DNA of 64,000 bases, from contig NZ_JAIQXX010000015.1 in the NCBI RefSeq assembly GCF_021887715.1, positions 1 to 64,000 of the forward strand, in the 5' to 3' direction. Source of the stretch: Winogradskyella immobilis. Lineage in GTDB: Bacteria; Bacteroidota; Bacteroidia; Flavobacteriales; Flavobacteriaceae. Each line of letters opens with the position of its first letter. The first letter of the stretch is position 1. Position numbers and translations under genes: made by a program. Positions 23,206-23,560 of this stretch are shown here, in pieces. A model generated the notes under the pieces. That model was not told the DNA's origin. It was given only the letters and a program-made list of their open reading frames with translations, and did not search any database.

Positions 23206-23241
23206 GTTAACCAGCGTTAATACGGCGTTAAAGTCTGTTAA
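23206..23241 (+). promoter_or_regulatory. Phased GTTAA repeats: candidate LytTR operator
   Basis: GTTAA occurs at 23206, 23216, 23227 and 23237, i.e. spaced 10, 11 and 10 bp, all on one face of the helix. Copies 1 and 3, and copies 2 and 4, are each exactly 21 bp apart, which is the spacing known for LytTR direct-repeat operators, and GTTAA is the core of the AgrA site. A near-match to the -7 element (TATGTTTT, 23265-23272) follows, placing the repeats next to the expected -33. The regulator that uses it is unknown. Confidence 0.5.
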
Positions 23242-23315
23242 ACCATACTATTTTTCGTAACACTTATGTTTTTCTGTCGTCTCTATAGTATAAATCAATT
23301 AAAAATCGAACAATC

Positions 23316-23402
23316 ATGAGAACTTTAAACAACAATCAATTAACGAACAAATTAGAAACGACAAAAGGATTTGCTTGGAACAGCAAAAGACGATGCCGAT
23401 AA
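23316..23402 (+). CDS. 28-residue small ORF 1
   Basis: ATG at 23316, stop at 23400-23402. The peptide runs MRTLNNNQLT, NKLETTKG, then FAWNSKRRCR. The first part resembles the leader of Bacteroidota ribosomally made peptides (MKxL... LxxxLxxxKGG style) and the last ten residues are basic with one cysteine. It is preceded by the phased GTTAA repeats and followed 26 nt later by a second tiny ORF. No modification or export gene is adjacent. Coding status is inferred from context; no homologue is known to me. Confidence 0.45.
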   Translation: MRTLNNNQLTNKLETTKGFAWNSKRRCR

Positions 23403-23428
23403 GTATCATAATTTTAAAACAAAGAACT

Positions 23429-23503
23429 ATGAAAGCTTTATCAAAAATCGTCAACACATCTAACAGTTTAGATGATGACCTAGAAACAATTAAAGTATGC
23501 TAA
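23429..23503 (+). CDS. 24-residue small ORF 2
   Basis: ATG at 23429, stop at 23501-23503. The peptide is MKALSKIVNT followed by SNSLDDDLETIKVC. It shares with ORF 1 the MxxL start and an LETxK block, and the DNA around that block is also similar, so the two may be diverged copies. The acidic LDDDLETIK stretch resembles the helix before a double-glycine cleavage site, but here it ends in VC rather than GG. A terminator follows 25 nt after the stop, so the two ORFs form a compact transcript. Confidence 0.45.
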   Translation: MKALSKIVNTSNSLDDDLETIKVC

Positions 23504-23527
23504 GAGACTTTAAATTTTTAAGTTAAT

Positions 23528-23560
23528 AAAAGCCAATACGTAAAACCGTATTGGTTTTTT
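23528..23560 (+). terminator. Rho-independent terminator of the small-ORF locus
   Basis: CCAATACG (23533-23540) pairs with CGTATTGG (23547-23554), extended by A/T pairs at the base, and is followed by a run of T to 23560. It lies 48 nt before the M19 dipeptidase start, so it could alternatively act as an attenuator for that gene. Confidence 0.75.

Follow-up and report, generated by a model that had tools for sequence, protein, structure and literature searches.

A putative ECF-type micropeptide operon in Winogradskyella immobilis and its relatives among the Flavobacteriaceae

What lies between the exbD gene and the M19-type dipeptidase gene of Winogradskyella immobilis (flank names assigned partly by eye)? 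The window analyzed here is a stretch of 64,000 nucleotides (contig NZ_JAIQXX010000015.1), in which an earlier note, made from the letters alone, had proposed a regulated small-peptide transcript between these two genes. Four GTTAA boxes spaced 10/11/10 bp, two ORFs of 28 and 24 codons and a clear terminator had been described, and all were found at the following positions.

23206-23241, forward strand: four GTTAA boxes (starts 23206, 23216, 23227 and 23237; spacing 10/11/10), a direct-repeat putative operator with OmpR-type spacing
23257-23262, forward strand: GTAACA, predicted ECF-type -35 element
23278-23282, forward strand: CGTCT, predicted ECF-type -10 element, the pattern conserved across upstream regions
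23316-23402, forward strand: pepA, cationic micropeptide of 28 aa, MRTLNNNQLTNKLETTKGFAWNSKRRCR
23429-23503, forward strand: pepB, micropeptide of 24 aa, short form, MKALSKIVNTSNSLDDDLETIKVC
23528-23559, forward strand: intrinsic terminator of 13 pairs

The window contains the four-box array a single time, whereas none of 100 dinucleotide shuffles contains it, and a three-box form gave 2 matches against 0 expected. With its boxes, promoter, two ORFs and terminator, the unit at 23206-23560 is, as judged by comparison, a real transcription unit. A near -7 element and a start near 23275 had also been proposed; by eye there is no TAnnTTTG box, and the conserved element is instead GTAACA-N15-CGTCT (23257-23282), so that transcription would start at about 23288-23292.

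A DNA search with the region (E < 1e-10) returned matches in 31 of the 37 genomes of the genus, the window's own included, and in none of 23 genomes from other families of the order. The six genus genomes without a strong match suggest that the operon is dispensable. Frame-breaking variation in close relatives, which the earlier note had named as evidence against its reading, was sought and not found in the 29 relatives' loci read (same genus), yet six genomes lack a strong match; in all 29 loci both ORFs were open and the same promoter lay upstream. Across 101 distinct first-copy sequences the pN/pS of pepA was 0.35 (0.22-0.49, bootstrap over codons), with 0.15 in codons 21-28, compared with 1.64 and 1.05 in the alternative frames, and that of pepB was 0.28 (54 distinct short sequences). 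The selection and frame scripts retained only peptides starting MRTL and ORFs starting ATG; together with the peptide patterns, these filters partly build in the invariance of those residues and leave the codon and frame statistics unaffected. Purifying selection confined to the pepA frame argues that pepA is translated, and we conclude from these comparisons that pepA and pepB are most probably translated genes, in support of a small-peptide transcript. A degenerate pepA copy whose frame is interrupted by stops lies at around 435-520 of locus L062.

A small regulatory RNA with incidental ORFs would account for one feature of pepA, codons 2-9 of which hardly vary in their nucleotides (codon sharing 0.86, compared with 0.51 in an exbD motif composed of different amino acids); some of this constraint could therefore be on the mRNA. 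Leaders resembling the start of pepA also precede other Winogradskyella genes, and we therefore tentatively read this constraint as a translation-start effect. In favor of an RNA are also the fold of the whole window transcript (z -3.81) and one SM6 promoter of Flavobacterium psychrophilum, which drives a putative sRNA named Rfp11 (PMC9723704). However, the z-score was only -1.86 once the terminator was removed, the mean for the pepA unit across 60 loci was near zero (-0.02, sd 1.69, with 10 percent of the loci below -2), pN/pS was below 1 in the coding frame only, and the tail, with its variable codons, was under strong amino-acid constraint. We strongly doubt the small-RNA reading. A structured small RNA was rejected, given the lack of an Rfam match in the window and of a fold on average over the 60 loci.

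To gauge how widely pepA occurs, we used a pepA profile, which detected it in 95 of 299 Flavobacteriaceae genomes at E <= 2e-6 (counted by hand from the listing), in 213 of 299 at E <= 1, many of these matches being weak, and in 3 of 395 genomes of the class at 1e-5, all Flavobacteriaceae and one of them the window's own. Gene neighborhoods were compared in the best 80 of 314 loci, found by peptide patterns on MRTL(N/D)(N/S)NQ or on the tail; a helicase was a near neighbor in 70 and exbD in 66. Retention of these neighbors across most of the 80 loci suggests that the pepA locus is old and mostly vertically inherited. Among 100 distinct loci, 56 carry one pepA copy, 38 two and 6 three. Extra copies precede HlyD-MacB-like genes (L264, L152), ABC transporter genes (L045, L180) and hydrolase genes (L265, L266). 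In other Winogradskyella (L043, L044, L047, L048, L049, L050 and L052) tandem GTTAA-type boxes are followed by a pepA copy and then by a histidine kinase gene, behind which L047 and L052 also have an OmpR-type regulator gene. Two of these loci, L043 and L052, were folded, and in both a long terminator-like hairpin separates the pepA copy from the kinase gene.

That hairpin before a kinase gene would favor a leader-peptide attenuator for the downstream gene. The downstream gene differs from locus to locus, however, and none is constant; pepA copies occur in tandem, the pepA unit has no fold on average, and in L252-L254 pepA stands alone between promoter and terminator, with no same-strand ORF of at least 70 aa beyond it in the stretch read. 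For the dipeptidase, the target suggested earlier, attenuation is very unlikely, given such stand-alone units and a dipeptidase family among the four nearest ORFs (at least 70 aa) in only 29 of the best 80 of 314 loci. As a general reading, attenuation is highly improbable.

The conserved tail of pepA reads WN-x-KRR-(Y/F), and pepB outside the genus is often about 44 aa long with the C-terminal end WxGxKRYAH. An LETxK block, earlier thought to be shared by the two ORFs, was present in 1 of 158 distinct pepA sequences, namely the window's own, and is thus peculiar to this genome. Pfam and NCBIfam held no family for the peptides tested; a long pepB gave one weak, unrelated Pfam match (E 0.073, below the cut-off), the best match among solved structures had E 1.5, phages and plasmids gave no match, and searches of one open library found no description of these peptides. 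By eye, the alignments show no hydrophobic membrane segment, and no signal peptide is apparent.

These observations bear on the signal peptide, RiPP precursor or toxin named in the earlier note. If the peptides were RiPP precursors or exported signal peptides, the W/K/R/Y C-terminal tail would be the core, modified by a distant enzyme and exported by a transporter. The tandem copies (two or three pepA in 44 of 100 distinct loci), the conserved aromatic and basic C-terminus, and the copies upstream of HlyD-MacB-like (L264, L152) and ABC transporter genes (L045, L180) fit such a role. Against it, no precursor family in Pfam or NCBIfam matched, no modification enzyme was recognized by eye in the 25 largest neighbor clusters of the best 80 of 314 loci, no signal peptide is apparent by eye, and the N-terminal part is conserved like the tail (pN/pS 0.16 and 0.15, to which the MRTL filter contributes). 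We consider this reading unlikely.

ECF promoters combine a -35 element containing AAC with a -10 element containing CGTC at a fixed spacing. GTAAC-N16-CGTC was present in 97 of 100 distinct upstream regions, always at one spacing, and 30 of the 31 Winogradskyella genomes contained a composite pattern of GTTAA pair and ECF promoter that gave 0 control matches, suggesting that the promoter is of ECF type. One of the three exceptions narrowly misses the pattern (L085); the others are a pepA triplet upstream of HlyD-MacB-like genes (L152) and a pepA copy upstream of ABC transporter genes (L180). In place of the ECF promoter L152 has TGGCAC-N5-TTGC, which we take to be sigma-54-like; the pepA copy at L264, also without an ECF promoter, has what is presumably a similar TGGCAC site, the full TTGC match occurring in L152 only. 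Besides pepA, the composite pattern preceded an outer-membrane receptor-like gene in the six other loci read (L035, L218, L220, L222, L226 and L229). A promoter scan of the window's own genome was noisy (11 matches compared with 4 in the control), and, by eye, two of its matches (L032 and L040) overlap what look like terminators. That genome encodes 19 genes with a sigma-70 region 2; upstream of candidate sigma genes we found GTAAC-N16-CGTC at L105, a form one base longer at L093, and GCAAC at L100.

Upstream of the promoter, a GTTAA pair 10 or 11 bp apart was present in 87 of the 97 distinct promoters. The last box starts 31 bp before GTAAC in 77 promoters, 30 bp in 7, 20 bp in 6 and 42 bp in 2; four other distances occur once each, and one promoter has no box. 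The direct repeat is thus in helical phase with the promoter, mostly in 11-bp steps, like the site of an activator that must face the polymerase. A loose palindrome, TACTWTG-N5-CAWAGTA, lies between the boxes and the -35 element in 67 of the 97 promoters and is absent from the window. In its strict form the palindrome was found beside an HTH_34-like winged-helix gene in all 8 non-pepA loci of the genus that were read (1 control match in the search), the HTH_34 identity having been Pfam-tested for one sequence, and we regard this link as a lead. In L192, L194, L196-L198, L201, L212 and L216, palindromes of the form TACTTTG-N5-CAAAGTA surround an HTH_34-like regulator gene and resemble that of many pepA promoters. 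A link of the palindrome to creD was dropped, CreD being present in only 7 of 31 genomes.

To follow the promoter beyond pepA, we used its commonest extended form, AWAGTACTGTAAC-N16-CGTC, as a probe. This extended core was present in 114 of 299 Flavobacteriaceae genomes with 0 control matches, and in 4 of 395 genomes of the class, all four Flavobacteriaceae, with 1 control match. The window's genome had 0 matches; its promoter retains GTAACA and CGTCT and has lost AGTACT. We read 71 of the 130 sites listed, a non-random selection comprising 30 loci from the search output and 40 chosen by us, most of them for having shown no pepA. By motif rules, 62 of the 71 sites drive cationic micropeptides of several sequence classes, and 39 of these 62 have at least two copies of a pepA-type or SKR-W-type motif. 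Seven of the 71 sites match no motif rule and 2 run off contig ends. By eye, L297 (a 29-aa peptide in four copies) and L313 are two more micropeptide sites, the core promoter drives a larger protein at four sites (two in L291, and L307 and L322), and the product at L340 is ambiguous. The product at L291, L307 and L322 is an acidic protein of 134-188 aa with a signal-like start, the two L291 copies lying about 1 kb apart.

Where canonical pepA is lacking, the genomes mostly carry peptides of 36-38 aa with the core SKRVxW, frequently preceded by a GFGW peptide; a comparison of this class with pepA gave no firm evidence of homology (hhalign P 0.0049, probability 7 percent). Arrays are often led by a separate small GFGW or GSGW peptide (L303, L309, L314, L318, L319, L320, L325, L328, L330 and L332), and L305, L317 and L323 carry related variants of it. 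The arrays lie at varied places, with no neighbor family common to more than 7 of 20 loci.

Small, cationic, often tandem peptides behind a conserved regulated promoter could also be stress-induced toxins or self-limiting growth inhibitors. Type I toxins, however, have a hydrophobic membrane segment, and none was seen here by eye; no partner gene was seen to be constant across the peptide classes, synteny is common to most of the best 80 of 314 loci, and no phage or plasmid copy was found. We judge a toxin to be quite unlikely.

We consider it likely that the locus is a translated, ECF-driven peptide operon acting in trans. Selection acts on frame and tail, and on average the RNA has no fold, which argues that the peptides are the product; the downstream gene varies and stand-alone units exist, so the peptides probably act in trans. 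Under this trans-acting operon reading, an ECF sigma factor would recognize GTAACA/CGTCT and start transcription, an OmpR-type response regulator would activate from the GTTAA repeat, and pepA and pepB would be stress effectors working in trans in the cytoplasm, with the conserved tail binding an acidic partner, either RNA or the ribosome, or a regulator. Since the peptides are short, basic and Trp-containing, with no apparent signal or membrane segment, we infer that a cytoplasmic acidic partner is the most plausible one, although the proposal of RNA or ribosome, or a regulator, as the binding partner is a tentative one that we would not expect to hold.

The comparison points to a composite promoter (GTTAA direct repeat and GTAACA-N15-CGTCT), two peptides selected in frame and a terminator; elsewhere, close variants of the promoter appear to drive cationic micropeptides in tandem arrays, some similar to these and some different. 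The operon would be one copy of an ECF-sigma-type micropeptide module spread through part of the Flavobacteriaceae. As far as sequence can tell, the micropeptide module is new, and its promoter is unusually constant. We also propose, as an idea that may equally turn out right or wrong, that the Flavobacteriaceae share a dedicated stress output in which a near-constant promoter is combined with swapped cationic micropeptides (pepA/pepB, the 36-38-aa SKRVxW class and GFGW), diversified by genus, recruitable into two-component, efflux and hydrolase operons, and forming a new class of cytoplasmic effectors with action in trans. For the conserved output of an apparent envelope-type stress response, neither Pfam nor NCBIfam has a family, probably because the genes are only 24-44 codons long. 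With the promoter pattern, in which 17 bases are specified, arrays can be located even when their peptides are unrecognizable by sequence. Should the peptides indeed work in trans, they would represent a new class of bacterial stress effector.

Among known systems, F. psychrophilum has an ECF-type promoter class, SM6, with a CGT -10 box, whose listed targets include an ECF sigma/anti-sigma pair, an ABC ATPase, a rhodanese, a TPR protein and a putative sRNA; low-nutrient conditions induce the ECF-type class, to which T9SS and membrane-protein genes belong (PMC9723704). Unlike the pepA promoter as described here, SM6 appears in the available passages of that paper with no mention of a micropeptide target, a GTTAA repeat or a palindrome (PMC9723704). 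The GTTAA boxes, direct repeats 10-11 bp apart and mostly in 11-bp steps from the promoter, resemble the sites of OmpR/PhoB-type response regulators. Such regulators bind direct repeats, and the 10/11-bp period seen in 87 of 97 promoters and the helical phase are consistent with an OmpR-type site. Relatives have an OmpR-type system (L052, L047) behind GGTTAA-N5-GGTTAACC sites and a pepA copy, and the one regulator tested has Response_reg and Trans_reg_C domains; the box spacing is mostly 10 here and 11 there. We liken this two-component system to RprX/RprY, which is our assumption. The earlier note had likened the boxes to a LytTR operator. LytTR operators consist of two 9-bp boxes 21 bp apart, and boxes 1 and 3 and boxes 2 and 4 of the window are indeed 21 bp apart. 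However, this spacing occurs in only 8 of the 97 distinct pepA promoters, of which seven belong to the window and to relatives whose boxes number three or four, compared with 10/11-bp repeats in 87, and on this basis a LytTR operator was rejected. Stress regulons include very small proteins made from alternative-sigma promoters, and the peptides described here are likewise very small products of an alternative-sigma-type promoter; the difference is that the tandem arrays switch sequence class between genera while the promoter is strongly conserved.
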